Shown: piece by piece, positions 3,668 to 49,014 of the stretch
How the letters are laid out: every line of letters starts with the position of its first letter
Position numbering within the stretch: the stretch's first letter is position 1
Source: Gorillibacterium timonense
Lineage (GTDB): Bacteria > Bacillota > Bacilli > Paenibacillales > NBRC-103111
Assembly: GCF_001457415.1 (NCBI RefSeq)
Contig: NZ_LN881723.1
Coordinates: 839,246-903,245 of the forward strand
DNA: 64,000 bases
Reading direction: 5' to 3'
Notes under the pieces: model-generated
Told to the model about the DNA's origin: nothing
The model's input: only the letters and a program-made list of their open reading frames with translations
The model's database searches: none
Position numbers and translations under genes: made by a program

Positions 3668-3686
3668 TGCCCAAGAGGTGACAGAG

Positions 3687-5204: not shown

Positions 5205-6400
5205 AGGCCCGATGGAGGCGCGGATTTGTCCTTTTCCTATGCCTATCTCTCCTGCTCACGGGTTGCTGGAACAGCAGGGAGTTGAATACCCTCGCGATCG
5301 TGAGCGGCCTCGGAATCGACAAGCTGGACAATCAAGAGGGATATCGCGTCTCGTTCCAAATCGTACTTCCATCGTCCACTTCATCCAAGCCGGAAAGCTC
5401 CGTGGGAGGGGCGGGAATCATCATAAACACCGCCACCGACAAAACGTTGTTTGGAGCTTTGCGCAAAGCCTCGAAGAAAACATCCCGGCAGCTTTTCTTT
5501 GCTCACTGCCAGCTCGTGATCCTTGGAGAAGAGTTAGCAAAGGACGGTCTGGGAACCGTTTTTGACATTTTCGAACGCTCGCATGAACTCCGGCTGAACA
5601 CGGCCGTACTTGTTTCAAGGGGAACGGATGCCGCGTCTATCTTAAAGATTTTGCTTCCGGCGGACAATGTTCCTTCGATTGGAGTAGTAAAAAAAAACCA
5701 GATCACATCCAAGGTTTGGGGAGAAAACAACAGTGTCGACGTCATGGAGGTCATCCAGCAGCTTACGGGAGAAGGGGACACGATCATAAGCGGCGTCCGG
5801 ATTATCGGAGACAAAGAAGGTGGCAAGAAAAAAAAGGACTTGGAACAAACGGAGCTGCCTTCCGTCGTCGTCATGAGCGGTATGGGTGTGTTTAAAAAAG
5901 GGAAATTGACGCGCTGGGTCGACGGTCATGAGGCCAGAGGAACCTTGACGGTTTTGGACAAGCTGAAGGAAACCGTTGTAAACATCGACAATCAAGATCA
6001 AGCAGAAGCAATTGCCGTCAACATTTTCTCTTCGAAGACAAACGTCAAGGTGAGCATGCGGGGAGGCGTTCCCCATTTTCAAGTAAGCATCCTGGAGGAA
6101 GGGAATATAACGGAAACCAAGCTCGATGTAAACCTGAGCGACCGGAAAACCATCGCCATCCTGGAGAGAAAGCTGGAAAAGAAGACGAAAGACGAGGTTA
6201 TCCGGACGATTCAAGCCGCTCAGGAGAAAGAGAGCGATCCCTTTAAGTTCGGCAACGAATTGAAACGAGCTCATCCGGCAGAGTGGAAAAAGGTTGGGGA
6301 GAATTGGGATTCCGCCTTCGCAAGCGGAGTACTCGATGTCGCTGTCGAAGCGCATATCCGCACCACCGGAATGAGATTAAATCCCTATTCCGCAAAATAA
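5201..6400 (+). CDS. gerAC: Spore germination lipoprotein, GerC subunit
   Basis: This 399-residue lipoprotein is the C subunit of the germinant receptor. It has a basic signal peptide and the lipobox LLLTGC (Cys about residue 22). The GerC family opening CWNSRELNTLAIVSGLGIDK and VSFQIVLPS follows. The ATG overlaps the stop of gerAA. The order here is A-C-B rather than the commoner A-B-C, as in some gerK-type operons. A small hairpin (6405-6420) separates it from the next gene. Confidence 0.93.
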   Translation: MKARWRRGFVLFLCLSLLLTGCWNSRELNTLAIVSGLGIDKLDNQEGYRVSFQIVLPSSTSSKPESSVGGAGIIINTATDKTLFGALRKASKKTSRQLFFAHCQLVILGEELAKDGLGTVFDIFERSHELRLNTAVLVSRGTDAASILKILLPADNVPSIGVVKKNQITSKVWGENNSVDVMEVIQQLTGEGDTIISGVRIIGDKEGGKKKKDLEQTELPSVVVMSGMGVFKKGKLTRWVDGHEARGTLTVLDKLKETVVNIDNQDQAEAIAVNIFSSKTNVKVSMRGGVPHFQVSILEEGNITETKLDVNLSDRKTIAILERKLEKKTKDEVIRTIQAAQEKESDPFKFGNELKRAHPAEWKKVGENWDSAFASGVLDVAVEAHIRTTGMRLNPYSAK

Positions 6401-6441
6401 CCGCGAGCGGCTTTCCGCTCTCGTCTGGAGTGTTCTGACGG

Positions 6442-7539
6442 ATGACAAATGAAACGATCAGCCCCAAACAGCTTTTCGCCTTGATGATCTTGTTTGAACT
6501 CGGGACGGCGCTTGTGGTTCCAATCGGACTGGAGAGCGGGCACGCCATCTGGTTGTCCATTTTGCTCGCACTTCCCGGTGGTTTGCTGTTATTTTTGATT
6601 TTCAGCGATTTACATCGCCGGCATCCGGGTGCAAGCTTCAGCAGCTGCATGCAAAAGATAATGGGCAAGTGGATCGGTTTTGCGCTGAGTCTGTTGTACA
6701 TTTCATTTTTTTTGCTGAACGGTTCCCGAAATTTACGGGAATCGGGAAATCTCCTGCTATCCGCCTATTACGACCAAACACCGATCCTGTTCATGAACGC
6801 GATAATGGTTATCGCGATTGTTTATTTCATGAGGAAGGGGGTCAACGTCTTCGGAAGAACATCTGAAATCTATCTTTTCGTCATCGCTATGATTGGAATC
6901 ATCTGCAATTTTGTCGTGATCGCATCCGGTCTGGTGAAGCTGCACAACCTGTTCCCTCTGCATATGCAGGACTGGAAAGGAGCGCTGAGTTCGGCCTACC
7001 CCGATATCTGGTTGTTCCCCTTTGGGGAGACCCTCCTCTTCTCAATCCTGCTGCCCTATCTATCGAAATCGAAATCCGCGAGGAAAACGGGTTTGCTTGC
7101 GATGTTGACAAGCGGTTTGCTCCTCAGCTTCACGCATGCGATCGAAATATCCGTACTCGGCGAGGACATCTACGGACGAACGACGTTTCCTCTGTTCACC
7201 ACCATTTCGCTCGTGAATGTAGCGAATTTCATTCAGCGCCTCGATGCATTCGTTATGCTGGCCATGATCATTTGTGTCTTTTTTAAGGCGACGGCTTATT
7301 GTTTTGGCGCCTGCATCCTGGCGGCAGACCTATTTCACGTTCAGGATTTCCGGATGTTGGCGGTTCCGATCGGCGTGGTTCTTCTGTTTACCTCTCTCAT
7401 CAGTGCCGAAAATTACGTCATCCATCTGGATGAAGGAAAAGTGGCCATGGCCTACATTTTGCCGGTTACGAATGTGCTTATACCAGCCATTCTGGCTGTG
7501 GTCGACCGGGTACGGACGAAATTCGGACTTTACCGGTGA
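6442..7539 (+). CDS. gerAB: Spore germination permease-like protein, GerB subunit
   Basis: This 365-residue integral membrane protein of the APC superfamily has about ten predicted helices. It is the germinant-binding B subunit of Ger receptors. The N-terminal ISPKQLFALMILFELGTALV and GHAIWLSILLALPGGLLLFL are typical. It is the last receptor gene and follows gerAC by 41 bases, with GGAG at 6427-6430 as the ribosome site. The germinant cannot be deduced from sequence. Confidence 0.92.
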   Translation: MTNETISPKQLFALMILFELGTALVVPIGLESGHAIWLSILLALPGGLLLFLIFSDLHRRHPGASFSSCMQKIMGKWIGFALSLLYISFFLLNGSRNLRESGNLLLSAYYDQTPILFMNAIMVIAIVYFMRKGVNVFGRTSEIYLFVIAMIGIICNFVVIASGLVKLHNLFPLHMQDWKGALSSAYPDIWLFPFGETLLFSILLPYLSKSKSARKTGLLAMLTSGLLLSFTHAIEISVLGEDIYGRTTFPLFTTISLVNVANFIQRLDAFVMLAMIICVFFKATAYCFGACILAADLFHVQDFRMLAVPIGVVLLFTSLISAENYVIHLDEGKVAMAYILPVTNVLIPAILAVVDRVRTKFGLYR

Positions 7540-7586
7540 AGCCGTAATGTCGATCGTACCCATGCCGATACGAAGATAACAACGGA

Positions 7587-7820
7587 TTAGCCTTTCGTCC
7601 TCCGATTGTGCTTTTTCTTGCGCGTATCTGCCCAGGCAGCCACAAGTGGAGCGACCAGAAAGCAAACGATGGCGATGGACTCTTGGATCGATGTGGTGCG
7701 AAAGAGATAGAGAATAGGGTGAAACACCGAAAACCAACTCATCCCGGACAGCAAATCGATGAAGACGACCATGGCGGATGCGAGCAACAACAGAACTCCA
7801 TAGAGCCAAATGATTTTCAT
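7587..7820 (-). CDS. Small two-helix membrane protein, function unknown
   Basis: This 77-residue protein opens MKIIWLYGVLLLLASAMVVF and has two or three hydrophobic stretches (about 3-22, 27-40, 45-66). The basic tail TRKKKHNRRTKG would face the cytoplasm. The ATG at 7820 follows GAAGGAGG closely; a longer reading to 7877 lacks a good ribosome site. It is convergent with gerAB. I recognise no family. Confidence 0.6.
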   Translation of the reverse strand: MKIIWLYGVLLLLASAMVVFIDLLSGMSWFSVFHPILYLFRTTSIQESIAIVCFLVAPLVAAWADTRKKKHNRRTKG

Positions 7821-8237
7821 AGGAGAGGGCCTCCTTCGATAGAGTTTCGCTGCGAATTCGGAATGAACCTGGGACAATGCTCGTATAAACCGATTGCAGA
7901 AACCAACGTTTGAGTCGACATGTTCTTGGCTAGTATTGCCCCGTGTAAATGATCATAGTCTTGACCGATGACATGCAATGCCCTCTGTGCCTTAGAGCGC
8001 CCGTTACACGTTTCAGAGCCCGCCCTCCGCATTCTCGTGAGTCTTTGGATTACGGTTCTCCAGTCTCTCTGTACCCTCAGGAGCAGCCTTTCTCCGAAAA
8101 GACTCGGCTCCATTCTTCGACACGTTAACTCAATGATGCATCAATGCGTCAATCCAGCCACTCGTCAATGATAATTGTCTCACACTTCTCCCTTTAATTT
8201 TCAATTTTACAGACTCGTGACAACTTGGCTTCTCTCA
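7821..8237. other. Intergenic region, about 420 bases without a recognised gene
   Basis: Short open frames exist on both strands, but none has a ribosome site and a protein-like sequence. I looked for the core motifs of S-box (SAM), T-box and cobalamin elements and did not see them. The region separates the germination genes from the promoter of the nitrogenase-like cluster. Confidence 0.5.
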
Positions 8238-8266
8238 TTGACAGGAATAGGTCTATGCCCTACGAT
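8238..8266 (+). promoter_or_regulatory. Sigma-A promoter of the nitrogenase-like cluster
   Basis: A perfect TTGACA (8238-8243), a 17-base spacer and TACGAT (8261-8266) lie about 150 bases upstream of the nifB-like start. An inverted repeat, TTATCC (8266-8271) and GGATAA (8286-8291), sits right at the expected transcription start and could be an operator. I see no GlnR-type TGTNA-N7-TNACA site, which normal Paenibacillus nif operons would carry. Confidence 0.65.
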
Positions 8267-8331
8267 TATCCCATTAAATCTCATTGGATAAGTAAGAATT
8301 AAACCTACACCGAGCCGACTGGATCACCAGA

Positions 8332-8378
8332 GGCCGGACTCCTACCGCTTTCGACCAAGCGGCGAGTCCGGCCTTTTT
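8332..8378 (+). terminator. Terminator hairpin in the leader of the nifB-like gene (possible attenuator)
   Basis: GGCCGGACTC (8332-8341) pairs with GAGTCCGGCC (8364-8373). A second stem, CCGCTT with AAGCGG (8345-8350, 8357-8362), lies inside it, and five T follow. It lies about 65 bases after the probable transcription start and 36 bases before the gene, so transcripts from the 8238 promoter must read through it. That arrangement is typical of attenuation or antitermination. No known riboswitch class is recognised in the short leader. Confidence 0.7.
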
Positions 8379-8413
8379 GCGTAATCCGTTTGCCGAAGGA
8401 AAGGAGCAGCCTC

Positions 8414-9316
8414 ATGGACTCGTCGACGAGCACCGCACGCACCGCGGATGACCCCTTCGGCCACCTGGTACGCAGACATCCCTGCTTCAGCGCCGAAGGT
8501 CATTTCAAGCACGGTCGCCTTCACCTGCCGGTCAGCCCGGCTTGCAACATCTCCTGCAAGTTCTGCAAACGCGCTTTTCACAAAGAAGAGAAGCGTCCGG
8601 GAGTAGCCCGAAGCCTTCTCTCTCCCGAGAAGGCGGCCGATGTGGTGAGGAAGGCTTTGAAGCTTTGTCCGGAGCTCACCGTAGCCGGCATCGCCGGGCC
8701 AGGCGATACCCTCGCCACGCCTCATGCGCTTGAGGCCTTCGAACGGATCCGGCAGGAGCATCCCGGCCTAATCCACTGCCTGAGCACAAACGGACTGCTT
8801 CTCGCCCGTTCGGTTGAACGGATCGTTCAAGCCGGCGTCGCGACGGTAACCGTGACCGTCAATGCAGTAGATCCGGTCATCCTGGAGCAGATCTGTTCGC
8901 GCATCGTGCTGGACGGGAGGCTGCTTGAAGGAAGGGAAGCGGTGGAAGCCTTGATCGACGCTCAGCTCCAGGGTATCCGGCGCGCTTCGGACGCCGGATT
9001 GGTCATCAAGATCAACACCGTGCTGATCCCGGGTGTGAACGAGTGGCATGTCGAAGAGATCGCTCGCCGGACGGCCGCGGAAGGAGCTTCCCTGATCAAT
9101 ATCATCCCGCTCATTCCACAGCATGAGATGATCCACATTCCCGCTCCCGACTGCTTCCAATTGAGCGAAGCCCGGGAAGCGGCGGAACGTTACCTTCCCG
9201 TCTTCCGGCACTGCCAGCAATGCCGGGCCGACGCCTGCGGCATTCCGGGAGCGGGGCGAGATTTGGCCTCCGCTCTCTATGATCATCCTCTGGAGGAGAC
9301 CTTCTCCCACGGCTGA
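8414..9316 (+). CDS. NifB-like radical SAM protein (metallocluster precursor synthase)
   Basis: This 300-residue protein is related to NifB, which fuses two 4Fe-4S clusters, inserts carbide from SAM and makes the 8Fe cofactor core. The radical-SAM triad is CNISCKFC (Cys 44, 48, 51). The NifB-specific N-terminal HPCFSAEGHF and C-terminal HCQQCRADACGIPG supply likely cluster ligands. There is no fused NifX domain; a separate NifX-like gene follows. I chose the ATG at 8414 because AAAGGAG (8399-8405) precedes it; an in-frame TTG at 8390 lacks a site. It is the first gene of the cluster. A MarB-type role, supplying the cofactor for the D/K proteins downstream, is the best inference. Confidence 0.85.
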   Translation: MDSSTSTARTADDPFGHLVRRHPCFSAEGHFKHGRLHLPVSPACNISCKFCKRAFHKEEKRPGVARSLLSPEKAADVVRKALKLCPELTVAGIAGPGDTLATPHALEAFERIRQEHPGLIHCLSTNGLLLARSVERIVQAGVATVTVTVNAVDPVILEQICSRIVLDGRLLEGREAVEALIDAQLQGIRRASDAGLVIKINTVLIPGVNEWHVEEIARRTAAEGASLINIIPLIPQHEMIHIPAPDCFQLSEAREAAERYLPVFRHCQQCRADACGIPGAGRDLASALYDHPLEETFSHG

Positions 9317-9334
9317 TTGCGAAATAATCGGGTT

Positions 9335-9429
9335 AGTACGCTGTCAGCCCTAATCGTATGAATATGAATCGTTGTCATTCGATATGGGAAGTTGTGCGGA
9401 GACCACGGTTTTCAAGCTGACAGCGCACT
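9335..9429 (+). other. Long-range inverted repeat between the nifB-like and nifX-like genes
   Basis: The 14 bases at 9335-9348 pair with 9416-9429 at all but one position (AGTACGCTGTCAGC against GCTGACAGCGCACT). They enclose 67 bases that contain a weaker inner pairing. In RNA this closes a structured element just ahead of the AAGGAGG of the nifX-like gene. There is no T run, so it is not a simple terminator. It could be a processing site or a regulatory RNA. Confidence 0.5.
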
Positions 9430-9456
9430 AGAGAATAAAGGAGGGGGTAAGCTTCC

Positions 9457-9807
9457 ATGACTTATCAAGTCGCCGTTGCCAGTCTGGACGGGGTGCGCAT
9501 CAACCAGCATTTCGGCCGGGCGGAACGGTTTCTTATTTACCAGATTGACGGCTCTGGCCAGGCGGCATGCATCGAAGAACGAGAGGTCAAGCGAGCCTGC
9601 GGTTACGGCTCGCATGAAGAAGACTCCCTGCTTGCTTCTGCAGCCGCACTTGCGGATTGCAGCTTCGCTCTGGTGGCGCGGATCGGTCCGGGAGCAGAGA
9701 AAATCCTCGCCAAACAAGGAGTCAAGGCGTTTGAAATTGCCGACTCCATTCCGAATGCCCTGGAGAAGCTCGTTCGTTACCTCGATCGGGTTCGGGAACG
9801 GACGTAA
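9457..9807 (+). CDS. NifX/NafY-like cofactor-carrier protein
   Basis: This 116-residue protein is one dinitrogenase iron-molybdenum-cofactor biosynthesis domain. The motifs VAVASLDGVRINQHFGRAER and FLIYQIDG are those of the NifX/NifB C-terminal/NafY group. These proteins hold cofactor or its precursor while it moves to the apo-enzyme. It has a strong AAGGAGGGGG ribosome site and sits between the NifB-like and NifH-like genes, which fits a carrier for this cluster's own cofactor. Confidence 0.85.
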   Translation: MTYQVAVASLDGVRINQHFGRAERFLIYQIDGSGQAACIEEREVKRACGYGSHEEDSLLASAAALADCSFALVARIGPGAEKILAKQGVKAFEIADSIPNALEKLVRYLDRVRERT

Positions 9808-9893
9808 CTGCCGCGCTTCATGTCCGCTTCCCGCTCTCGTCAATCGAGTTTCTTGTACAAACAATCACGACCAAACGAACAGGAGTGACTAAC

Positions 9894-10772
9894 ATGCCCA
9901 AAAAAGTCAAACAAATCGCCATCTACGGAAAAGGAGGCATCGGCAAGTCCACCACCACCTCGAATATCAGCGCCGCCCTGTCCGTCGCCGGCTACAAGGT
10001 GATGCAGTTCGGCTGCGATCCCAAGAGCGATTCGACGAATACCCTGCGCGACGGCCAGTATATTCCCACCGTTCTCGACACCCTGCGGGAGAGGACGAAG
10101 ATCAATGCGCATGATGTCATCTTCCAAGGCTTCAACGGCATCTACTGCGTGGAAGCCGGCGGTCCCGCTCCCGGCGTCGGCTGCGCAGGCCGGGGCATCA
10201 TCACCGCCGTTCAGCTCTTCAAGCAGCAGCGGGTGTTCGAGGAGCTCGATCTCGACTACGTCATCTACGATGTATTGGGCGATGTGGTTTGCGGAGGCTT
10301 CGCCGTCCCGGTCCGGGAAGGGATCGCCGAGCATGTCTTCACGGTTTCCTCAGCCGATTTCATGGCCGTTTACGCCGCGAACAACCTGTTTAAGGGCATC
10401 CACAAATATTCCAACGCCGGAGGCGCCCTCCTTGGCGGCGTGATCGCCAACTCGATCAACGCTCCTTATTCCAAGGATATCATCGACGATTTTGTCCGCC
10501 GCACTCATACCCAGGTTGTGGAATACGTCCCGCGCTCCGTGACCGTAACCCAAAGCGAGCTGCAAGGAAAAACGACCATCGAGGCGGCTCCGGACTCTCA
10601 TCAAGCCCGTATCTACCGCGAACTCGCCCGAAAAATCGACGAGCACGAGGTTTCCCGCGTTCCGGCTCCGATGGAAGTGAGCGAGCTGAGAGAATGGGCA
10701 GCCAAATGGGGTGAGCAGCTTGTACAGCTGGAAAGCGGGATTCTCACCCCGCAGGCGGCGGGCAATCTGTAA
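9894..10772 (+). CDS. NifH-like Fe protein (ATP-dependent reductase)
   Basis: This 292-residue protein passes electrons to the D/K partner at the cost of ATP. The P-loop YGKGGIGKST is at residues 11-20. The 4Fe-4S cysteines are C97 (GVGCAGRG) and C133 (GDVVCGGFAVP), and R100 matches the ADP-ribosylation arginine of NifH. Overall it is close to true NifH, rather than to BchL or CfbC. The ATG at 9894 follows AGGAG (9881-9885) by 8 bases. It lies upstream of cysK and the K-like and D-like genes. Confidence 0.92.
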   Translation: MPKKVKQIAIYGKGGIGKSTTTSNISAALSVAGYKVMQFGCDPKSDSTNTLRDGQYIPTVLDTLRERTKINAHDVIFQGFNGIYCVEAGGPAPGVGCAGRGIITAVQLFKQQRVFEELDLDYVIYDVLGDVVCGGFAVPVREGIAEHVFTVSSADFMAVYAANNLFKGIHKYSNAGGALLGGVIANSINAPYSKDIIDDFVRRTHTQVVEYVPRSVTVTQSELQGKTTIEAAPDSHQARIYRELARKIDEHEVSRVPAPMEVSELREWAAKWGEQLVQLESGILTPQAAGNL

Positions 10773-10870
10773 GCTGTTTGGCGCTAGGCGAGTGTTGGAG
10801 TGTTGGTGGTAGAGGTATATGAGCGACTTGCCGCTGCCCCTCTTAAAACAGGAAAGGAAGTGTCTTGGAG

Positions 10871-11815
10871 ATGGCTAAGATCGCCGCTAGTTTAACGGAT
10901 CTGATCGGCAACACCCCTCTGCTTGAGCTGAAGGCCTTCAACAAAGCGCAGGGCGTAAAGGCACGAATCATCGCCAAGTTGGAATATTTCAATCCGGCGG
11001 GCAGCGTCAAGGACCGCATTGGCCTCGCCATGATCCAGGCGGCCGAGGAGCAAGGGCTCCTGCATCCCGATTCCGTCATCGTCGAGCCGACGAGCGGCAA
11101 CACGGGCATCGCGCTAGCCTTCGTTTCGGCCTCACGCGGATACCGGCTCATCCTGACCATGCCGGAGACGATGAGCACCGAACGACGGAATCTCCTCAAG
11201 GCGCTGGGAGCCGAACTGGTCCTGACGCCCGGTGCGGAAGGCATGAGAGGCGCGGTGCGCCGAGCCGAAGAGATCGCGGCGGAGATTCCGAATGCGTTCC
11301 TGCCGCAGCAATTTAACAATCCAGCCAATCCGGAAGTTCACCGCCGGACAACGGCGGAGGAAATTTGGCGGGATACGGACGGTACCGTGGACCTCTTCGT
11401 AGCAGGCGTCGGTACTGGCGGCACGGTCAGCGGCGTCGGCGAAGTGCTCAAGGGACGCAAATCCGATGTGCAGATCGTCGCCGTCGAGCCCTTCGACTCC
11501 CCCGTTCTATCAGGTGGCGCTTCAGGATCGCATCGAATTCAAGGCCTCGGAGCGGGATTCGTGCCGAAGACCTTCAATCCCGAAGTCATCGATGAAATTT
11601 ACAAGGTCAAGAACGAGGAAGCCTTGGAGACCTCGCGGGAACTGGCCCGACTGGAAGGGCTGCTCGTCGGCATCTCCTCGGGAGCGGCTGCCTTCGCTGC
11701 GGTGCAAGTAGCCAAACGGCCGGAGAACGCCGGGAAGACGATCATCGTCTTGCTGCCGGATACCGGAGAGCGCTATCTGTCGACTGTGCTTTTTCAGGAG
11801 CCGGCACGAGCTTAA
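10871..11815 (+). CDS. cysK: Cysteine synthase (O-acetylserine thiol-lyase)
   Basis: This 314-residue PLP enzyme makes cysteine from O-acetylserine and sulfide; such enzymes can also accept thiols such as methanethiol. Motifs are [10 protein letters not shown], the PLP-lysine site [11 protein letters not shown], the substrate loop [20 protein letters not shown] and [11 protein letters not shown]. The ATG at 10871 follows AAGGAAG (10854-10860). Its position inside the nitrogenase-like cluster, between the Fe protein and the catalytic subunits, is the strongest hint that the enzyme complex releases a reduced sulfur compound. Confidence 0.93.
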
Positions 11816-11907
11816 TGCCTGTCGCAAGAGTCTCCACCTATTCAATCAACAGTCCATATTCAATCAGCAGTCCTTATTCAATCAGTAGTCTCCCCCCCAT
11901 CCCATAA
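11815..11907 (+). CDS. Possible 30-residue peptide with three internal repeats, coupled to cysK
   Basis: The ATG overlaps the TAA of cysK (TAATG). The frame stays open through three tandem 18-base repeats and stops at 11907. The peptide is MPVARVST followed by YSINSP, YSISSP and YSISSL and a PPIP end. The repeat length is a multiple of three and the frame is uninterrupted. There is no independent ribosome site, so expression would depend on reinitiation from cysK. I recognise no homologue; it may be a chance frame. Confidence 0.3.
   Translation: MPVARVSTYSINSPYSISSPYSISSLPPIP
11839..11892 (+). repeat. Three tandem 18-bp direct repeats
   Basis: Units at 11839-11856, 11857-11874 and 11875-11892 follow TATTCAATCARCAGTCCW with few changes, exactly head to tail. 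They lie between cysK and the K-like gene. They could be an iteron-type binding site, the coding repeats of the small peptide above, or slipped-strand expansion. Confidence 0.85.
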
Positions 11908-11911
11908 GCAT

Positions 11912-11952
11912 CCGATCAACAAACGTTCAGCATTCGAGCTTGAGTTGATCGG
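11912..11952 (+). other. Inverted repeat upstream of the K-like gene
   Basis: CCGATCAAC (11912-11920) and GTTGATCGG (11944-11952) are perfect complements with 23 bases between them. They lie 54 bases before the K-like start. The T-poor context argues against a terminator; an operator or mRNA-stabilising stem is possible. Confidence 0.5.
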
Positions 11953-12006
11953 TATTCATCGGTACCTCCTGATAAGACATCGCAAGGCGGAAAGGAGTAG
12001 GAGAAC

Positions 12007-13347
12007 ATGAGTCAAGTCGTAGAAAGACCGCGGTTTACCTGCGCCTTGGGCGGAGCCATCGGCACCGTACAGGCGCTGCCCCGGGCCATTCCCATCCTGC
12101 ACAGCTCGCCGGGCTGCGGAGGCAATCTGGCCGGGGCTCTCAGCGGAGCCTCCGGTTATCACGGGGGCAGCTACTGCGGAGGCAATACCCTGCCGAGCTC
12201 CAACGTCTCGGAGCGAGACATCGTCTTCGGAGGCGAGGAGCGGCTGGCTGAGCAGATTGAGAATACGATCAAGGTCATGGACGGGGATCTCTATTTTGTC
12301 GTCACCGGCTGCATGGTGGAGATGATCGGCGATGATGTGCATGCGGTTGTGAAAAGATTCGCAGGCAGCGAGCATCCCGTATTCGGAACGGAAACGACCA
12401 GCTTCAAGGGAAACTCTTATAAAGGCTATGACGATGTCCTCCAGGCGCTCATCCGCGACTTTGTCGAACCGGCAGAAGTCAAGGACGCGGCGACGGTAAA
12501 CCTCTTCGGCATCGTTCCTCTCCAGGACGTGTTCTGGAAAGGCAATATCGATGCCCTGAAGGGCCTGTTGGAGAAGCTCGGTCTTCGCGTCAATACCTTT
12601 TTCGGAACGGGGGAAACGATCGACAACCTGCGTTATTCTGCGTCGGCTTCCCTTAATATTGTCGTCTCTGAGGTATACGGGCAAGCGTCCGCAGAGACCT
12701 TCGAGGAAGTCCATGGCGTTCCCTTTCTGACGGTGCCGCTCCCGATCGGCGATCATGCAACGACGGCTTTCCTGCTTGCTGTAGGCCTTGCGCTCGGACT
12801 TGATCCGGTGCAGGTCGACAAGGTGATCTCCGAAGAGCGCAGGTTTTACTACGATTACCTGCAGAGATTGTCCGACTCGTATAACGACCTGGATTTTCAA
12901 CGCTACGCCACCGTGGTCGGTGATGTCAACTACGCCCAGGCCGTCACGCGCTTTCTTGCCGACGATCTCGGCTGGCTGCCGGAGCTCGCCATCGTGACCG
13001 ACACGCTCCAGGACGATCAGGTGGAACGTGTGCGCGGCAACTTTACCGCCTACCGATCCGGTCTGCAGCCCGAGGTCGTCTTCGATCCGAACGGCGCGAA
13101 CGTTCCCAAGCATATCAACCGTCACTGGCCTCAATCGAATGCCCAGAGATATTATGAGGGCTTTACCCCGGGTTTCATCGTCGGCAGCGTCATGGAGAGA
13201 GATGTCGCCGAGCAGTTCAAGGTGCCGCTTCTCGCCGTCAGTTATCCGATCACCAACCGTGTCGTGCTGAATCGCGCCTATACCGGCTTCAAGGGAGGGC
13301 TGACGCTGGCCGAGGACCTCATCAGCCTCGTTGTCGCTCACCGCTGA
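12007..13347 (+). CDS. Nitrogenase-like component 1, beta (K-like) subunit
   Basis: This 446-residue protein belongs to the NifD/NifK/BchN superfamily. Cys12 (RFTCALGGAIG), Cys37 (HSSPGCGG) and Cys102 (TGCMVEMIGDD) match the three P-cluster cysteines of NifK (C70, C95, C153). SERDIVFGGEERL is the usual motif between them. It is about 75 residues shorter than NifK, because the NifK N-terminal extension is missing. It would pair with the next gene product to form a D2K2-type complex fed by the NifH-like protein. The K gene comes before the D gene, the reverse of nifDK. Confidence 0.85.
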   Translation: MSQVVERPRFTCALGGAIGTVQALPRAIPILHSSPGCGGNLAGALSGASGYHGGSYCGGNTLPSSNVSERDIVFGGEERLAEQIENTIKVMDGDLYFVVTGCMVEMIGDDVHAVVKRFAGSEHPVFGTETTSFKGNSYKGYDDVLQALIRDFVEPAEVKDAATVNLFGIVPLQDVFWKGNIDALKGLLEKLGLRVNTFFGTGETIDNLRYSASASLNIVVSEVYGQASAETFEEVHGVPFLTVPLPIGDHATTAFLLAVGLALGLDPVQVDKVISEERRFYYDYLQRLSDSYNDLDFQRYATVVGDVNYAQAVTRFLADDLGWLPELAIVTDTLQDDQVERVRGNFTAYRSGLQPEVVFDPNGANVPKHINRHWPQSNAQRYYEGFTPGFIVGSVMERDVAEQFKVPLLAVSYPITNRVVLNRAYTGFKGGLTLAEDLISLVVAHR

Positions 13348-13404
13348 CGCTCGTCGCGACTTCCATCCGTATCTCAGACCATCCGATAAGGAGTGATTTC
13401 CACC

Positions 13405-14973
13405 ATGGATTATCTCGATCAAAAAGCTCCGCCGATCCGCGAAGACCGGCTCGCCGCTTGCGGAGCATATGGAGGCTCCTGCTGCGATCTGTCCGGCCAG
13501 TCGAAGAAAGGCGGCTGCCTGTTCAACACGAAGCGCACCTTCTCGCAGACCCAAGGCTGCCAGCTCAGCCTGAGCCTCGGCATGGTCGCCTCCATGCGCG
13601 ATTCCGTCGTCATCGTGCACAGTCCGGGCGGCTGCGGGGCGAACATGCTGCAGATGGCCGGCATCAACAAGGTGTTCCAACAACTGCGCAGCACCTCGGC
13701 GCGCGGACTGCGCTGGATCAACACCAATCTCGACGAGGTGGACGTTATCCAGGGCGGAGAGAAGAAGCTCCGCGAAGCCGTTCTTCTCGCCGAGAAGGAA
13801 TTCCGTCCGGAAGCGATCCTCGTGATGAATTCCTGCGTGCCAGCTCTCATCGGCGACGATATCGACAGCGTATTGGATGACTTGCAGCGGCAGGTGAACG
13901 CGAGAATCGTGCCGATTCACTGCGAGGGCTTCCGGACCAAGATCCAGGCGACGGCGTATGATGCCGTCTATCACGGAATTCTTCGCAATCTGGTCGGCGA
14001 AGACAAACGGAAAGCCGAACTTCCTGTTTCAGTACGAGGCGAAGATCCACTGGTGGAGGCCGAACGGCAAGCCAGGATCAGCCGCACCGTCAACCTGCTC
14101 AATGTCGGCTCCATGAGCCGGCTGGACGAGGTGGAACTGGTCCGCATCCTGAATGCCCTGGATTTGAACGTGCGGATTCTCCCCTGCTTCAGCCATCCAG
14201 ACGATTTCGCCGACTCGTACGAGGCAGCTCTCAACGTCAGCATTTGCGCGACCCATGACGACTATTTCGTAGAGCATTTCCTGGAGAAATACAACGTTCC
14301 TTTCGTCCTCCGCACCATTCCCATCGGAATCGCCAACACGAACAAATGGATTCGCGACATCGCCTCCTTCTTTGGCATCGAGGAGCGGGCCGAACGGTTC
14401 ATCGCGGCGGAGACTCGGGAGTTGAACGAAGCTCTTGAGCCTTATCGGCGTCAGCTCAGCGGCAAAAAGGTGTTTCTCACCGGCGGCGAAATCCGCATCA
14501 TGACCACAGCCGAGCTGCTTCACAACCTCGGAATGGAAGTGATCGGGCTTAGGGGATACCATTTTGACAAATTCGGGGAAATCCTGCTCGATGAGTTCCT
14601 GGAGGACGTACCGGAAGCGAAGGAAGCCGTCTTCAACATTGGGGCGGGCCAAGTATTTGAGCAGGCTAATCTCCTCAATCGGCTGCAGCCGGATCTGTTT
14701 GTAGGGCATAACGGCTGCAACAGCTCCGCCGCCAAGCAGGGCTTTCCGATCTTCCCGCTGTTTGGGCAAAGCAACGATTATCTCGGCTATCAAGGCGTCT
14801 TCGAAGTCGCGACCCGCGTTGCCCGAATGATGAGAAATCCGGCGTACAACGTCAATTTGGGCCATAATACCAAGTTACCTTATCGACAATCCTGGTATTC
14901 AGAAAATCCCTTCCATTATATCGATCAGGCCGCTCTTCTGGAGGAAGATTCCCCTTCCGCCCAGTTCGCCTGA
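13405..14973 (+). CDS. Nitrogenase-like component 1, alpha (D-like) subunit
   Basis: This 522-residue probable catalytic subunit has P-cluster-type cysteines at C52 (QTQGCQLSL), C77 (SPGGCGAN) and C144 (NSCVPALIGDD). IHCEGFRTKIQ at about 172-181 parallels the NifD RCEGFRG motif. C281 in LNVSICATHDDYF lines up with the NifD cofactor ligand Cys275. The region corresponding to NifD His442 (about 448-465, PLFGQSNDYLGYQG) has no histidine. Four extra N-terminal cysteines (C19, C26, C27, C38) are unusual. The ATG at 13405 follows AAGGAG (13388-13393); an in-frame GTG overlaps that site. A NifB-derived but non-FeMo cofactor is inferred. Confidence 0.87.
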   Translation: MDYLDQKAPPIREDRLAACGAYGGSCCDLSGQSKKGGCLFNTKRTFSQTQGCQLSLSLGMVASMRDSVVIVHSPGGCGANMLQMAGINKVFQQLRSTSARGLRWINTNLDEVDVIQGGEKKLREAVLLAEKEFRPEAILVMNSCVPALIGDDIDSVLDDLQRQVNARIVPIHCEGFRTKIQATAYDAVYHGILRNLVGEDKRKAELPVSVRGEDPLVEAERQARISRTVNLLNVGSMSRLDEVELVRILNALDLNVRILPCFSHPDDFADSYEAALNVSICATHDDYFVEHFLEKYNVPFVLRTIPIGIANTNKWIRDIASFFGIEERAERFIAAETRELNEALEPYRRQLSGKKVFLTGGEIRIMTTAELLHNLGMEVIGLRGYHFDKFGEILLDEFLEDVPEAKEAVFNIGAGQVFEQANLLNRLQPDLFVGHNGCNSSAAKQGFPIFPLFGQSNDYLGYQGVFEVATRVARMMRNPAYNVNLGHNTKLPYRQSWYSENPFHYIDQAALLEEDSPSAQFA

Positions 14974-14995
14974 TCGGAGAAAGGAGCAAGAAGAC

Positions 14996-16201
14996 ATGGG
15001 CAACTCGAAGTCTCCCCTGTTTGTTCCCGCCGAAGCGGCGGCCGGAGCGGCCCGTTCGAGTCATTCAACAGAGACGACGGCTGGTTCAGTCGAAGATCTT
15101 CACTTGGCTGACTTAACGGAAACGATTCCCTTGGAAGAGAGAACGAAAGCCGTCAAGGATAACCCCGGCAAACGACCATCCTCTCTTCAGTCCGTGAGCG
15201 TGAAGGAGCTCGATGAAGCGGAAGAAGCGTTCGCCCGGCCGGCTCAGTTGACCCGCCTGCAGACCTGGCGGTCCTGGTTGCCTCCTCTGGCTGCCGCCGC
15301 CGCGCTCTTGGTTCACCTGCTGCTGCCGTCGAAGAGCATCTTCGTGCCAGAGCATCCTTACTTTCTGTACTTTTTGATTCTGGTCGGAGCGATCACCCTG
15401 GGGCTTGCGGTTACGGACACGGTGCGCCGCAAACCAACGTCCTCTTATCGCCATCAATCGCTTTTTCTGGCGGTCGCCATCACCTTCCTAAATGTGCTCA
15501 ATGCTTTCACGCTCAAGACTACTCTGCTTCCGGCCCTGTATTTTCCGCCGCTCGATAAGATTCTCGCGGTGATCGTCGAGGATTCCGGCTTCCTTGCAAC
15601 CTGCATCGGCCATTCCGCCAAGCTCCTCTTCACCGGATTCTTCTTCGGAGCCTTAGCCGGACTGGCAACAGGGATCAGCGTCGGCTTCAGCCGAAAATGG
15701 GCGTATTGGATCAATCCGATCATCAAAGCGCTCGGTCCAATTCCTGCAACCGCCTGGATTCCGGTCGTACTGGTCGTCTTTCCGACCAGCTATTCCGCCA
15801 GTGTCTTCATGATCGCGTTCGCTGTATGGTTTCCGACGACCGTCATGACAAGCAGCGGCGTATCGAATGTGCAAAATTCCTATTTTGAGGTATCCAGCAC
15901 GCTTGGCGCCAGCTCCCGCTATCAAATTTTCCGCGTCGGGGTTCCCGCCGCCATGCCGAGCATGTTCATCGGCATCTTCAATGGAGCTTGCGCTTCCTTC
16001 ATCGCCCTCATGACGGCGGAGATGCTTGGTGTCAAATACGGGATCGGCTGGTACATCAACTGGCAGAAGGAGATGCTTGCTTACGCAAACGTCTATGCCG
16101 GACTGCTGCTCATCGCCATTAGCTTCTCCGTGCTCATCACCCTGCTGTTCAAGTTCCGCGACCGCGTGCTTCTCTGGCAAAAGGGAGTGATCAAATGGTA
16201 G
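14996..16201 (+). CDS. ABC transporter permease, SsuC/TauC type, with long N-terminal extension
   Basis: This 401-residue membrane protein has a C-terminal core (about 190-395) that is a binding-protein-dependent permease of the nitrate/sulfonate/taurine family. It includes the EAA-type loop SSTLGASSRYQIFRVGVPAA and the helices around LGPIPATAWIPVVLVVF. About 90 polar, probably disordered residues and two or three additional helices (about 95-175) precede it, so it is about 140 residues longer than SsuC. It follows the D-like gene by 22 bases with its own AAAGGAG and overlaps the ATPase gene, so the importer is co-transcribed with the reductase. Confidence 0.9.
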   Translation: MGNSKSPLFVPAEAAAGAARSSHSTETTAGSVEDLHLADLTETIPLEERTKAVKDNPGKRPSSLQSVSVKELDEAEEAFARPAQLTRLQTWRSWLPPLAAAAALLVHLLLPSKSIFVPEHPYFLYFLILVGAITLGLAVTDTVRRKPTSSYRHQSLFLAVAITFLNVLNAFTLKTTLLPALYFPPLDKILAVIVEDSGFLATCIGHSAKLLFTGFFFGALAGLATGISVGFSRKWAYWINPIIKALGPIPATAWIPVVLVVFPTSYSASVFMIAFAVWFPTTVMTSSGVSNVQNSYFEVSSTLGASSRYQIFRVGVPAAMPSMFIGIFNGACASFIALMTAEMLGVKYGIGWYINWQKEMLAYANVYAGLLLIAISFSVLITLLFKFRDRVLLWQKGVIKW

Positions 16202-17055
16202 TTCGGGATATTGCTAACAAATCCGCCGCAAAGATCGCTACCATGGGCGAGCTCTCCAGCCAAAGCGGGTCAGCCGTACAAGGTGAAATCCTCATCCGCG
16301 ATGTGAAAAAGACGTTCGTCCAGCCGTCTGGAGAGACGATCACCGCACTCAGCCGGGTGAACACGACGATCCGGCCGGGAGAGTTCGTCACTCTGATCGG
16401 TCCCTCCGGCTGCGGCAAATCCACGCTGCTGCGGTTGATCGCCGGCTTGCTTCAGCCGGATGAAGGAACGCTCACGTTGGACGAGAGTCCCATCCAGGCT
16501 CCCCACTTCGAACGCGGCCTCGTCTTTCAGGATCCGACTCTCTTCCCTTGGCTCACGGTCGAAGACAATGTGGCCTTCGGGCTGAAAGCACGAGGGATCT
16601 ACAAGAAGAAGAAAGGAGAGGTGCAAACGTTCCTCGGCCTGGTTGGGCTGGGAGGCTTCGGCAAGTCGTATCCTCACCAGCTGTCGGGAGGGATGGCTCA
16701 GCGAGCGTCTCTCGCCCGAGCGCTGATCAATCATCCGAAGGTGCTTCTGCTGGATGAACCGTTCGGTGCGCTCGACGCCTTCACCCGCATGAACATGCAG
16801 GAAGAGCTGCTCCGCATCTGGAAGGAGCGCGGTACCACCATGGTCATGGTCACCCATGATGTGGACGAAGCCATCTATTTGTCAGACCGCATCCTCGTCA
16901 TGACCACCCGGCCCGCAAAGATCGAGACCTCCATCACCGTGGAGCTCGCCCGCCCACGAGCAAGAGGAAACCCAGAATTCCTGCAGCTTCGTTCACGCAT
17001 TCTGGAAATTCTCGATTTTGCCGGCAAAGTGGAAGAACCGGCTTACTACTTATGA
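16195..17055 (+). CDS. ABC transporter ATPase, SsuB/TauB type
   Basis: This 286-residue ATPase has Walker A GPSGCGKST (about residues 74-82), Q-loop LVFQDPTLFPW, signature QLSGGMAQRASLARAL, Walker B VLLLDEPFGALD and switch histidine VTHDVDEAIYL. The PTLFPWLTVEDNV and PFGALDAFTR forms are those of nitrate/sulfonate/taurine importers. A non-homologous 25 to 30-residue N-terminus precedes the domain. It overlaps the permease gene by 7 bases and the lipoprotein gene by 4 bases. Confidence 0.93.
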   Translation: MVVRDIANKSAAKIATMGELSSQSGSAVQGEILIRDVKKTFVQPSGETITALSRVNTTIRPGEFVTLIGPSGCGKSTLLRLIAGLLQPDEGTLTLDESPIQAPHFERGLVFQDPTLFPWLTVEDNVAFGLKARGIYKKKKGEVQTFLGLVGLGGFGKSYPHQLSGGMAQRASLARALINHPKVLLLDEPFGALDAFTRMNMQEELLRIWKERGTTMVMVTHDVDEAIYLSDRILVMTTRPAKIETSITVELARPRARGNPEFLQLRSRILEILDFAGKVEEPAYYL

Positions 17056-17429
17056 GCACGGCCCAGTGGCATAAGCCTACTCAAAGGGTCCGTAAGTCGG
17101 CTGTCATCTGCCTCGTTCTGACTTTGGTCGCAGCCGCAGTCGGTCTCTCCGGCTGCGGCCCAAAGAAAGCAACAGACACAAGTTCAAACGGGCATCATCC
17201 TGCCGTTACAGCCTCGCCCGGTACCTCTTCTTCGGAAGGATCCTTCGGATCGGCGATCCGTTCTACCGATCCAACGAGTGGGCTGTTCACTTCATTGCCG
17301 GATGCCAGCTCAGCCGATTCCAGCGATTCGACGGGCTCCTCTTCCGCAGATGCCGCCCATTCCAGCCCTTCTACCGACAGTCATTCTGCTGGTGCTGCCG
17401 CTGCGACGGAGAAAGAAGATTGCCACTGA
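17052..17429 (+). CDS. Short Ser-rich lipoprotein of unknown function
   Basis: This 125-residue protein has a signal peptide and the lipobox VGLSGC (Cys about residue 35), followed only by a Ser/Ala/Pro/Thr-rich low-complexity tail that ends KEDCH. There is no substrate-binding domain. Its ATG overlaps the ATPase stop (ATGA), so it is probably translated. It may be the lipid-anchored stub of a duplicated binding protein, since the next gene has a similar lipobox and linker, or an accessory surface protein of the importer. Confidence 0.6.
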   Translation: MSTAQWHKPTQRVRKSAVICLVLTLVAAAVGLSGCGPKKATDTSSNGHHPAVTASPGTSSSEGSFGSAIRSTDPTSGLFTSLPDASSADSSDSTGSSSADAAHSSPSTDSHSAGAAAATEKEDCH

Positions 17430-17462
17430 TAAACCTGCTGCCAAGTTTGTCTGCGAGAGGTA

Positions 17463-17479
17463 CCGGCGAGATACGCCGG
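17463..17479 (+). other. Small GC-rich hairpin before the binding-protein gene
   Basis: CCGGCG (17463-17468) and CGCCGG (17474-17479) pair around a 5-base loop with no T run. It lies in the 203-base gap between the lipoprotein gene and the binding-protein gene. It may mark an mRNA processing or stability point, allowing higher binding-protein levels. Confidence 0.35.
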
Positions 17480-17632
17480 CAAGTGTAAGCTGTTTGCCTG
17501 AGCTAGTATCCAGGCCCGGCCAATCATTTCGAAAACATCTTAGGGGGGTACTCGCTTTTCCCACATTTTCGCTTTCACGCATTCCCGCTTTCTAGCTTTT
17601 TTCATCCAAAAATACCAAGGAGTGATTCGCCA

Positions 17633-18775
17633 GTGACAGACAAGAAAGTCAAGCGAGCGCGCAAAATCCGCAAAGCGGCTACCCTCGGCCTCGCCTTAAC
17701 CCTGCTTGCCTCCGGCCTCGCCGGATGCGCTCAAAGCTCCAAAACCTCATCCTCCGCAGCTCCTTCCGCTTCGGCGAGCAGTTCGGCGTCACCCGCCGCC
17801 TCACCATCCGCCTCGGCGGGGCAAGCCACCAACGTTGCGGCGAAAGCGGACGATTATGTCCTGCAGATCGGCTTTGGCGGCGGGCTGTGCGAAGCCGCTC
17901 TGCATATTGCCATCGAGAAAGGGTTCTTCGCCGAGGAAGGACTGAAGTACACGACGACCAAGGTGGACTCCACCACTTCGCTTGAGCTCATCTCCACTAA
18001 GAAGATCGATGCCAGCTTCGGACTGCTCGCCAAAATGATCCAGCCGATCGAGAATGGCCTCGATATCCAATTCGTCACCGGCGTCCATACCGGGTGCATA
18101 CGCATCTTGGTTCCTGCGGGCAGCCCGATCAAGAGCCTGGCCGACCTGAAGGGCAAACGCATCGGCGTTCCCGGTCTCGCTTCAAGTCCTGCTGTAGTCG
18201 CCCGCCGCGCCCTGGCGAAAGTCGGGGTCGGCGTCACCGAGAAGAATATGGAAGTCGAACTCGTCAACTATACGGCGGCCGATCTGCCGCTAGCCCTGAA
18301 GAACGGAGCTGTGGACGCCATCGCTCACAGCGATCCCCAAGCCGTTGTCGCCGAGAAGGATCAGAACCTGACGGAGCTCTTGAATACCGCCACAGATCCC
18401 TTCTTCAAGAACGAATACTGCTGCGTGGCGTACCTTCGCCGGGACATCATTCAAGACCATCCGGAAGCGGCCGCAAAGTATGCTCGCGCCATCCAAAAGG
18501 CAGCGCATTGGGTTGCCGAGCATCCCGATGAAGCCGCTCAAATCCAAATCGACAAGAAATGGGTTCCGGGAGATCCGAAGCTGAACGGTGAAGTGCTCGC
18601 CACCTACGACTTCCGTCCGTCCGGGAGCGGCGCAAAGGATGCCCTCGCCGTCACCGCCAAGGATCTGCAAAGCCTCGGGCTGCTGAAGGAAACGACCAGC
18701 ATCGACCAGTTGGTGGAACACAGCTATATTCATCTTGAGGGAGTCGAAGATAATCAGGTTCAGTTGAACAAGTAA
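17633..18775 (+). CDS. ABC transporter substrate-binding lipoprotein, SsuA/TauA/NMT1-like
   Basis: This 380-residue lipoprotein has lipobox GLAGC (Cys about 32), a 40-residue Ser/Ala/Pro linker and a periplasmic-binding type II domain. QIGFGGGLCEAALHIAIEKG and FFAEEGLKY open the domain, and SLADLKGKRIGVPG and FGLLAKMIQPIENGLDI follow. The cysteine-containing motifs GGGLCEA, VHTGCIRIL and NEYCCVAY are unusual for sulfonate binders. The start is GTG at 17633 with AAGGAG (17617-17622). It is the last gene before the terminator at 18810. The ligand is probably an organosulfur or other small anion (inference from the cluster). Confidence 0.88.
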   Translation: MTDKKVKRARKIRKAATLGLALTLLASGLAGCAQSSKTSSSAAPSASASSSASPAASPSASAGQATNVAAKADDYVLQIGFGGGLCEAALHIAIEKGFFAEEGLKYTTTKVDSTTSLELISTKKIDASFGLLAKMIQPIENGLDIQFVTGVHTGCIRILVPAGSPIKSLADLKGKRIGVPGLASSPAVVARRALAKVGVGVTEKNMEVELVNYTAADLPLALKNGAVDAIAHSDPQAVVAEKDQNLTELLNTATDPFFKNEYCCVAYLRRDIIQDHPEAAAKYARAIQKAAHWVAEHPDEAAQIQIDKKWVPGDPKLNGEVLATYDFRPSGSGAKDALAVTAKDLQSLGLLKETTSIDQLVEHSYIHLEGVEDNQVQLNK

Positions 18776-18809
18776 TCGTTCTGAGTTAGCTGTGTTGGGC
18801 AAACCGAAT

Positions 18810-18862
18810 GAAGCTTCCACCTCTGCGCCTAGTCAGAGGTAGAAGCTTCTCTTTTGTCTTTT
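18810..18862 (+). terminator. Rho-independent terminator of the nitrogenase-like/ABC cluster
   Basis: A 16-bp stem with one mismatch (18810-18825 with 18834-18849) has an 8-base loop and is followed by TCTTTTGTCTTTT. It separates this cluster from the convergent xylan-utilisation operon. Confidence 0.9.
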
Positions 18863-48997: not shown

Positions 48998-49014
48998 CAC
49001 CTGAATTCCCCCAC

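Follow-up and report, generated by a model that had tools for sequence, protein, structure and literature searches.

What does a third nitrogenase-type system do in a bacterium that already has two? The question is raised by a gene cluster of Gorillibacterium timonense, which occupies positions 8238 to 18850 of a 64,000-nucleotide stretch of contig NZ_LN881723.1 (the window, by which the whole stretch is meant). The host genome (5.26 Mb, 7 contigs) carries Mo- and Fe-nitrogenase genes, and the cluster is a third system beside them. Among the ten PF00148 proteins and three strong NifH-type proteins of the genome, NifH, NifD, NifK, NifE, and NifN are encoded on the cluster's own contig, the last four all over their cut-offs. 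Another contig carries AnfD and AnfK together with a NifH-type gene and a further NifE/NifN pair (NifN barely over and NifE under the cut-off). The initial annotation had recorded nifE and nifN as absent from the window; the genome has both genes, and two nitrogenase gene sets, elsewhere. The cluster itself runs B-X-H-CysK-K-D-permease-ATPase-lipoprotein-substrate-binding protein (SBP), all on the plus strand, and every part that had been described as one plus-strand block (NifB-, NifX-, and NifH-like proteins, CysK, K, D, and transporter) is present. From its sequence and surroundings, we consider it probable that the nitrogenase-like enzyme cuts a C-S bond of an imported organosulfur compound and feeds the sulfide to CysK, under the control of an RNA antitermination hairpin.

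For the K-like subunit (12007 to 13347, plus strand; PF00148, 241 bits) and the D-like catalytic subunit (13393 to 14973, plus strand; PF00148, 243 bits), the closest solved relatives by sequence are MarK and MarD of methylthio-alkane reductase (Mar). K matched MarK (9d9u_C) best, with an E value of 1e-77, and D was closest to MarD in fold as well. Both proteins fell below the NCBIfam cut-offs of NifDK, VnfDK, and AnfDK (for example, NifD at 147 of 653.6 bits and NifK at 87 of 427.3 bits), and the best NCBIfam profile of D, NifE at 166.8 bits, was also below its cut-off. In trees, into which VnfDK, CfbD, and BchNB were not entered by name, neither D nor K fell inside the host's own NifDK or AnfDK, a placement that the initial annotation had named as fatal to its proposal. 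When a thinned set with 19 sequences of the window's clade, 20 of the Mar clade, and 24 others was analyzed with ultrafast bootstrap (UFBoot), the Mar clade was supported at 99 without the window D, and the clade joining the two at 100. A true nitrogenase was rejected on the basis of profiles, tree, and ligands. The NifH-like reductase (9894 to 10772, plus strand; listed open reading frame [ORF] from GTG at 9885) exceeded the NifH cut-off (TIGR01287, 415 bits against 394), which does not discriminate; Mar and Nfa reductases have also been reported as NifH homologues.

The active site gave a more detailed picture. As had been claimed, the D/K pair keeps its cluster cysteines, that is, all six P-cluster cysteines and the cofactor cysteine, and the window D itself retains C56, C81, C148, C285, and H439. 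Among clade members with a letter at the site, the MarD ligand Cys270 was found in 84 of 84, His429 in 81 of 81, and His375 in 77 of 83. When D was aligned to NifD, no counterpart of the nitrogenase cofactor His442 (loop II) was found, and Gln stood at the position of NifD Gln191. Other Mar residues were replaced. Arg428, which together with His429 is a suggested hallmark of Mar (PMC12552129; this and the other publications are cited from excerpts), is Gly in the window D and was present in none of the 81 lettered clade relatives versus 47 of 48 Mar-type sequences. Phe199 was Tyr in 84/84 clade members and Phe in 45/48 Mar-type sequences, and Trp195, replaced in the window D, was retained in 14/84 versus 44/48. 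Because the ligands are retained but Arg428, Phe199, and Trp195 are changed, the predicted cofactor seat looks like that of Mar, and the predicted substrate pocket does not. The D family thus reads as a clear variant of Mar at the level of sequence. The relationship to Mar proposed in the initial annotation was upheld by these computational comparisons, but not the confinement to Firmicutes, since relatives also occur in Treponema, Geobacter relatives, and Fibrobacteres.

These relatives came from a genome scan with D, which yielded 63 loci in Paenibacillus, Peptococcaceae, Ruminiclostridium, Pelosinus, termite-gut Treponema, Geobacter relatives, and Fibrobacteres. ORFs similar to those of the cluster were found for the ATP-binding cassette (ABC) ATPase in 45 loci, CysK in 44, the permease in 36, B and SBP in 32 each, H in 30, and X in 18, all lower bounds, as contig ends cut many loci. 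Pelosinus propionicus (27 PF00148 matches in the genome) has an unusually large array of seven D/K-type pairs in about 38 kb (G002:C78:50972-88741; L021/L100-L102), and a single genome of Ruminiclostridium hungatei (G009, L015) has 28 PF00148 matches.

The neighbor that bears on the product is the predicted cysteine synthase CysK (10865 to 11815, plus strand; TIGR01139, 462 bits, cut-off 351). CysK couples sulfide to an activated amino acid, and MetY, the usual methanethiol acceptor, does so with methanethiol. For a comparison of the window's clade (83 loci) with the Mar clade (47 loci), further loci were added from 398 genomes that belong to the same phylum as a Ruminiclostridium (G001). Within 3 kb of D, CysK was found in 46/83 and MetY in 0/83 loci of the window's clade, versus 8/47 and 10/47 in the Mar clade. 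Within 8 kb, the values were 56/83 and 4/83 versus 23/47 and 15/47. After thinning at 70% identity, through which alone the Fisher tests correct for relatedness, CysK lay within 3 kb in 12/29 and MetY in 0/29, compared with 3/27 and 7/27 in the Mar clade. A chance neighborhood was rejected on the count of 46/83. In 46 loci, the best CysK copy was 61 to 80% identical (median, 69%) to that of the window, whereas the host's remaining CysK-like proteins reached 60, 55, and 44% identity, apart from a weak match at 26%; for this reason, CysK appears to accompany the enzyme from genome to genome. Since CysK is linked and MetY is absent within 3 kb, the product of D/K is likely sulfide. The initial annotation had CysK receiving either sulfide or a thiol. 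The tie of D/K to CysK extends across phyla, but it points to sulfide, not to a thiol.

A sulfur link of such genes has been suggested before. Nif-like genes bearing Cys275 were described as neighbors of either cysteine synthase or O-acetylhomoserine sulfhydrylase, with a proposed role in sulfur metabolism (PMC3464626, Dos Santos 2012), and nifK and nifD stand together with cysteine synthase in a termite-gut spirochaete (PMC13067680). The CysK/MetY neighborhood and the sulfur role are thus shared with the genes of Dos Santos 2012, whereas neither a split by clade nor an RNA leader appears in the excerpt of that paper. New here is the split of CysK and MetY by clade, which allows the product (sulfide or methanethiol) to be predicted directly from CysK-linked and MetY-linked clades.

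The leader was found by aligning the region 5' of B with three relatives, in which a hairpin, a terminator, and the promoter were conserved. The predicted sigma-70 promoter (TTGACA-17-TACGAT, 8238 to 8266, plus strand) matches the consensus at 10 of 12 positions; position 8238, the cluster start in the initial annotation, belongs to the -35 box of this best match. TTGACA or TTGACG with a -10-like box was seen at the matching place 5' of nifB in three related loci (L001, L002, and L007). The counts of such sites in the search were not above chance (six promoter-like sites versus 4.0 in shuffles and nine terminator-like sites versus 11.9). Downstream lies the conserved hairpin GCCGACTGG-ATCA-CCAGAGGC (8314 to 8334, plus strand), a candidate antiterminator of 21 nucleotides (nt) that folds as (((..((((....)))).))) and is matched by covariance model R1 at 8304-8337 with 35.5 bits, as a training member. 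A terminator stem with a T-run (8331 to 8378, plus strand; -31.0 kcal/mol by RNAfold) reuses the AGGC of the hairpin. Because both structures use AGGC, they are mutually exclusive.

The leader hairpin appears to be undescribed. An Rfam search of the window returned nothing, positions 7540-9460 had no match at E ≤ 1 to any of the 4227 families of Rfam 15, and no description was found in the literature listings searched for it. On 11 related loci, Rfam gave two matches far below the gathering scores, with E values of 0.15 (sok, over the L225 hairpin) and 0.22. The LicT/SacY ribonucleic antiterminator (RAT) and the ANTAR sites are likewise short hairpins overlapping the 5' arm of an intrinsic terminator; the window hairpin differs from them in its sequence and its internal loop.

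When 20 instances were folded, all adopted the same structure as the window hairpin, a five-base-loop form, or a form with one extra pair, and in 20/20 a terminator stem of -16.6 to -36.1 kcal/mol began within the AGGC of the lower stem. R1 was built from 19 instances of the hairpin alone, because a MAFFT alignment of nine full leaders misplaced the terminator arms. In the window and the 63 loci, it matched 29 places at E ≤ 0.05, six of them training members, with Geobacter relatives included. Pairing was intact in 99.0% of cells across 28 distinct sequences, and five of seven pairs had changed on both sides; these sequences are matches of a model that contains the structure, and the counts lean toward it. 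The 22 double-changed cells were reached by 0 of 500 shuffles. Thus, the leader hairpin looks like a real RNA structure. Altogether, 63 R1 matches were obtained at E ≤ 0.05 (29 + 34), and 55 were inspected (seven second copies and L271 were left out; L008 and L201 are one place). In 36 of the 55, a gene for B, K, D, MarD, H, CysK, MetY, or an importer subunit starts within 900 nt. Two weak matches, L001:4267 (minus strand, E 0.0085) and L007:4353 (minus strand, E 0.029), fall on a palindromic stem before a large secreted-looking ORF and may be chance.

The distribution of the hairpin was surveyed with a strict pattern, GCYGACTGG-N3-5-CCAGAGGC. The pattern was chosen for its exact consensus, and its instances alone therefore say little about covariation. 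It occurs once in the host genome, and the hairpin model found nothing at E ≤ 0.05 at the host's nif and anf loci. In the 398 genomes mentioned above, there were 5 matches in 4 genomes and none of the reversed pattern; three of the four genomes also belong to the 14 in which D was matched at 1e-80, and the hairpin match of the fourth lies inside an ORF. In 296 genomes of the window's order, 17 matches in 15 genomes were obtained, against 2 of the reversed pattern. Here, the hairpin was present in 6/10 genomes with a D-like match (1e-30) versus 9/286 without one (P = 1e-6).

The genes behind the hairpin differ between genomes. The cluster's nifB-like gene comes next in G000, G035, G036, and G037. 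Second sites in G036 and G037 precede a Mar-type D (46% identical to MarD), and G164 has one site before a Mar-type D and another before a D of the window's clade. In six of the nine hairpin-bearing order genomes without a D-like match, the hairpin precedes the same importer ATPase (90 to 100% identical). Reading was continued beyond the ATPase in three of these, and in all three it is followed by an NtaA/DmoA-like monooxygenase (scored in L261; copies 92 to 94% identical in L262 and L263), and in L263 an SsuE-like flavin mononucleotide (FMN) reductase comes directly after. Other sites precede a membrane protein without an assigned family (G222) or genes not tied to the cluster (L010 and L016). 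In G431 (L224), the strict hairpin has no gene directly after it; at this place (L224/L267, G431:C31:4524), it lies 3' of two genes resembling Cys/Met-type pyridoxal phosphate (PLP) enzymes, with a weaker model match at L267:5443 (E 0.0065). One of the nine genomes has the hairpin inside an ORF. Strict matches L245 and L226, inside long ORFs, were taken as chance, and those of L247, L252, and L258 overlap only an upstream ORF extension or another frame. We read the leader as a putative antitermination switch of an organosulfur regulon. Depending on the genome, this regulon would serve either an anaerobic reductive route (nitrogenase-like) or an aerobic one through a flavin monooxygenase. As such, the conserved RNA leader, which the initial annotation had overlooked, would be a sign of organosulfur regulation independent of the enzyme.

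The proposed pathway would begin with the import of a small organosulfur anion or thioether by the Ssu/Tau-like ABC system. The NifB-like protein would make an [Fe8S9C] precursor, as its family and conserved stretches suggest, perhaps carried by the NifX-like protein. By analogy with Mar, DK would bind a P-cluster through the six observed cysteines and [Fe8S9C] through the observed Cys285 and His439 of D. The NifH-like dimer would then supply electrons with ATP, reductive C-S cleavage would release sulfide, and CysK, following its family function, would couple the sulfide to O-acetylserine. In the leader, the hairpin GCY-GA-CUGG/CCAG-A-GGC and the terminator, as judged from their sequences, would compete for the same GGC, and sulfur limitation would favor the hairpin via a ligand or a protein.

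Of the alternatives, a strict methylthio-alkane reductase, which would release methanethiol from methylthioethers with CysK as an incidental neighbor, survives best, but we consider it unlikely. MarDK are the nearest solved relatives, and Mar-type pairs often lie in the same loci as the window-clade D and behind the same RNA leader. However, D is placed outside the Mar clade, the three Mar pocket residues are absent or rare in its relatives, and MetY is missing within 3 kb. Compared with MarBHDK of Rhodospirillum rubrum (PDB 9FMG, 9D9U), the window also has K before D, CysK rather than MetY adjoining, and an importer and a NifX-like protein encoded in the operon.

A divergent nitrogenase that reduces N2 (group IV-A, the Nfa type of Endomicrobium proavitum) seems less probable again. 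E. proavitum incorporates 15N2 with group IV genes only, and a Paenibacillus riograndensis homologue was classed as Nfa of unknown role (PMC9147875). The cofactor cysteine of D and its Gln at the Gln191 position would also fit. On the other hand, the host already has Mo- and Fe-nitrogenase genes, a Mar-type His takes the place of a His442 counterpart, and the clade is associated with CysK and with genes of the Ssu kind. In a protein search aimed at E. proavitum NfaD, none of the matches listed (120 of 544) was named as Endomicrobium. Among the closest published genes are those described as nifDK-like in P. sabinae T27, P. zanthoxyli, and P. forsythiae (all Paenibacillus), whose D proteins are orthologous (72 to 73% identity). 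They were published as of unknown function, and cysteine synthase goes unmentioned in the main texts of both publications. In P. sabinae T27, nifHDK-like transcripts showed no difference whether or not the conditions were N2-fixing, and a Klebsiella nifD mutant was not restored by any of the genes nifD-like1 to 5 (PMC4246453), which argues against N2 reduction. The same paper states that alpha-Cys275 is not conserved in the P. sabinae NifD-like sequences. This does not fit the orthologue in G700, taken as P. sabinae T27, which is 73% identical and has all ligands checked, including the alpha-Cys275 equivalent.

An isethionate reductase (Isr) or another sulfonate reductase, releasing sulfite, is somewhat less probable still. 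IsrBHDK of Rhodobacter capsulatus is likewise a B-H-D-K set and a nitrogenase-like organosulfur enzyme with an Ssu-type importer in its locus (PMC11423573). The same source describes an IsrD that retains, of the three P-cluster cysteines, the Cys88 equivalent alone and that lacks both FeMo-co ligands; in the window D, none of the three is lost, and the cofactor cysteine is present too. The resemblance of IsrB to NifB is reportedly confined to the radical SAM motif, whereas the window protein matches the NifB profile over 9-287 with 265 bits. Cysteine synthase suits sulfide more than sulfite. Isr identity was rejected on the cysteines, with IsrD compared by its description and not in the tree. 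Very improbable is a role in metallocofactor assembly, in which CysK and the importer would supply sulfur for iron-sulfur clusters and DK would be a NifEN-like scaffold, as the NifB-, NifX-, and NifH-like assembly genes and the NifE profile match of D might suggest, for DK are nearest to the catalytic MarDK (D also in fold), the CysK-like genes found in the host genome are, by their coordinates, not at the nif or anf loci, and the RNA leader ties the cluster to importers and monooxygenases.

Several observations weigh against the release of sulfide from an imported organosulfur compound under hairpin control. The reaction predicted for the clade is based on sequence, neighborhood, and analogy to Mar. 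The wider D clade was monophyletic at only 77% UFBoot, and the node uniting it with the Mar clade had a FastTree value of 0.722 (0.993 with three more sequences) in a tree that left out 4-kb loci, nitrogenase-like proteins over 700 amino acids (fusions), and matched stretches under 300 residues. CysK was not within 8 kb in 27/83 relatives, some of whose loci are truncated by contig ends. None of the three importer components (permease, ATPase, SBP) reached the cut-off of an NCBIfam model for Ssu or Tau. The strict hairpin was absent from 4/10 order genomes with a D-like match, and in G615 and G700 it precedes a separate importer permease, not the D cluster. In L257 and L258 (G669 and G634, without a D-like match), hairpin and terminator stand before an ORF that is MarR-like by eye, possibly a regulator of an organosulfur operon. 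R1 matched in only 23/64 sources and in none of the Treponema loci, and two of five covariation measures were weak (five double-changed pairs in 9/500 shuffles and the pair-type number in 488/500). Finally, the P. sabinae complementation used D genes alone, without their own K (PMC4246453).

A bolder combination, which we put forward tentatively and judge slightly more likely to fail than to hold, is that the 21-nt GA/A-loop hairpin blocking its own terminator is a new RNA switch class, spread across Bacillota and relaxed in form in Geobacter relatives, that jointly controls nitrogenase-like C-S reductases of two families along with Ssu-like importers and an importer-flavin monooxygenase operon, and that the window BHDK founds a third sulfur-releasing nitrogenase family, with sulfide as product and CysK as dedicated partner. 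If so, nitrogenase chemistry for sulfur would extend to at least one family beyond Mar and Isr, the ligand or protein of the hairpin would be a new sulfur sensor, and three cofactor systems would have to stay separate within one cell. The RNA hairpin would also serve as a regulon marker by which further organosulfur genes could be found without knowledge of the substrate.

The remaining parts of the cluster are as follows. The NifB-like radical SAM protein (8415 to 9316, plus strand; listed ORF from TTG at 8390) lacks the C-terminal NifX domain and covers 9-287 of the 441 positions of TIGR01290, below the cut-off of 344 bits. HPC, CxxxCxxC, AGPGD, and QCRADACG stretches, which we take to be NifB motifs, are visible in it. 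An inverted repeat (GCTGTCAG ... CTGACAGC, 9340 to 9424) between the nifB-like and nifX-like genes is maybe a second regulatory site. The NifX-like cofactor-binding protein (9457 to 9807, plus strand) scored 68.1 bits with PF02579 (cut-off 26.3). All three components of the full SsuABC/TauABC-type transporter that had been announced are present, but with scores below the Ssu/Tau cut-offs, and "sulfonate-type" denotes a family resemblance in sequence. They comprise a Ssu/Tau/NitT-type permease (14996 to 16201, plus strand; PF00528; TIGR01183, 84.6 bits), an ATPase of the same type (16195 to 17055, plus strand; NF040729, 249 bits), and an NMT1/SsuA-like SBP (17633 to 18775, plus strand; PF09084, 87.6 bits; TIGR01728, 118 bits, cut-off 163.5). 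Between the last two lies a predicted 125-amino-acid lipoprotein (17052 to 17429, plus strand) with a signal-like N terminus and LSGCG in its translation, for which no Pfam or NCBIfam match was found. A 16-bp terminator-like stem (18810 to 18849) closes the cluster, shortly before the end (18862) given in the initial annotation; it was reported on the minus strand, and on the plus strand TCTTTTG follows it.

Elsewhere in the window, three genes resembling, by eye, a spore germination (Ger) receptor operon lie just 5' of the cluster (3678 to 7539, plus strand). A 1502-amino-acid ORF (35274 to 39782, minus strand) contains many near-identical short repeats of the SVGSEQLQAGAVETRHL type, and at 42293 to 50301 (minus strand), a predicted secreted protein of 2245 amino acids adjoins a 428-amino-acid protein, with S-layer homology repeats apparent by eye.

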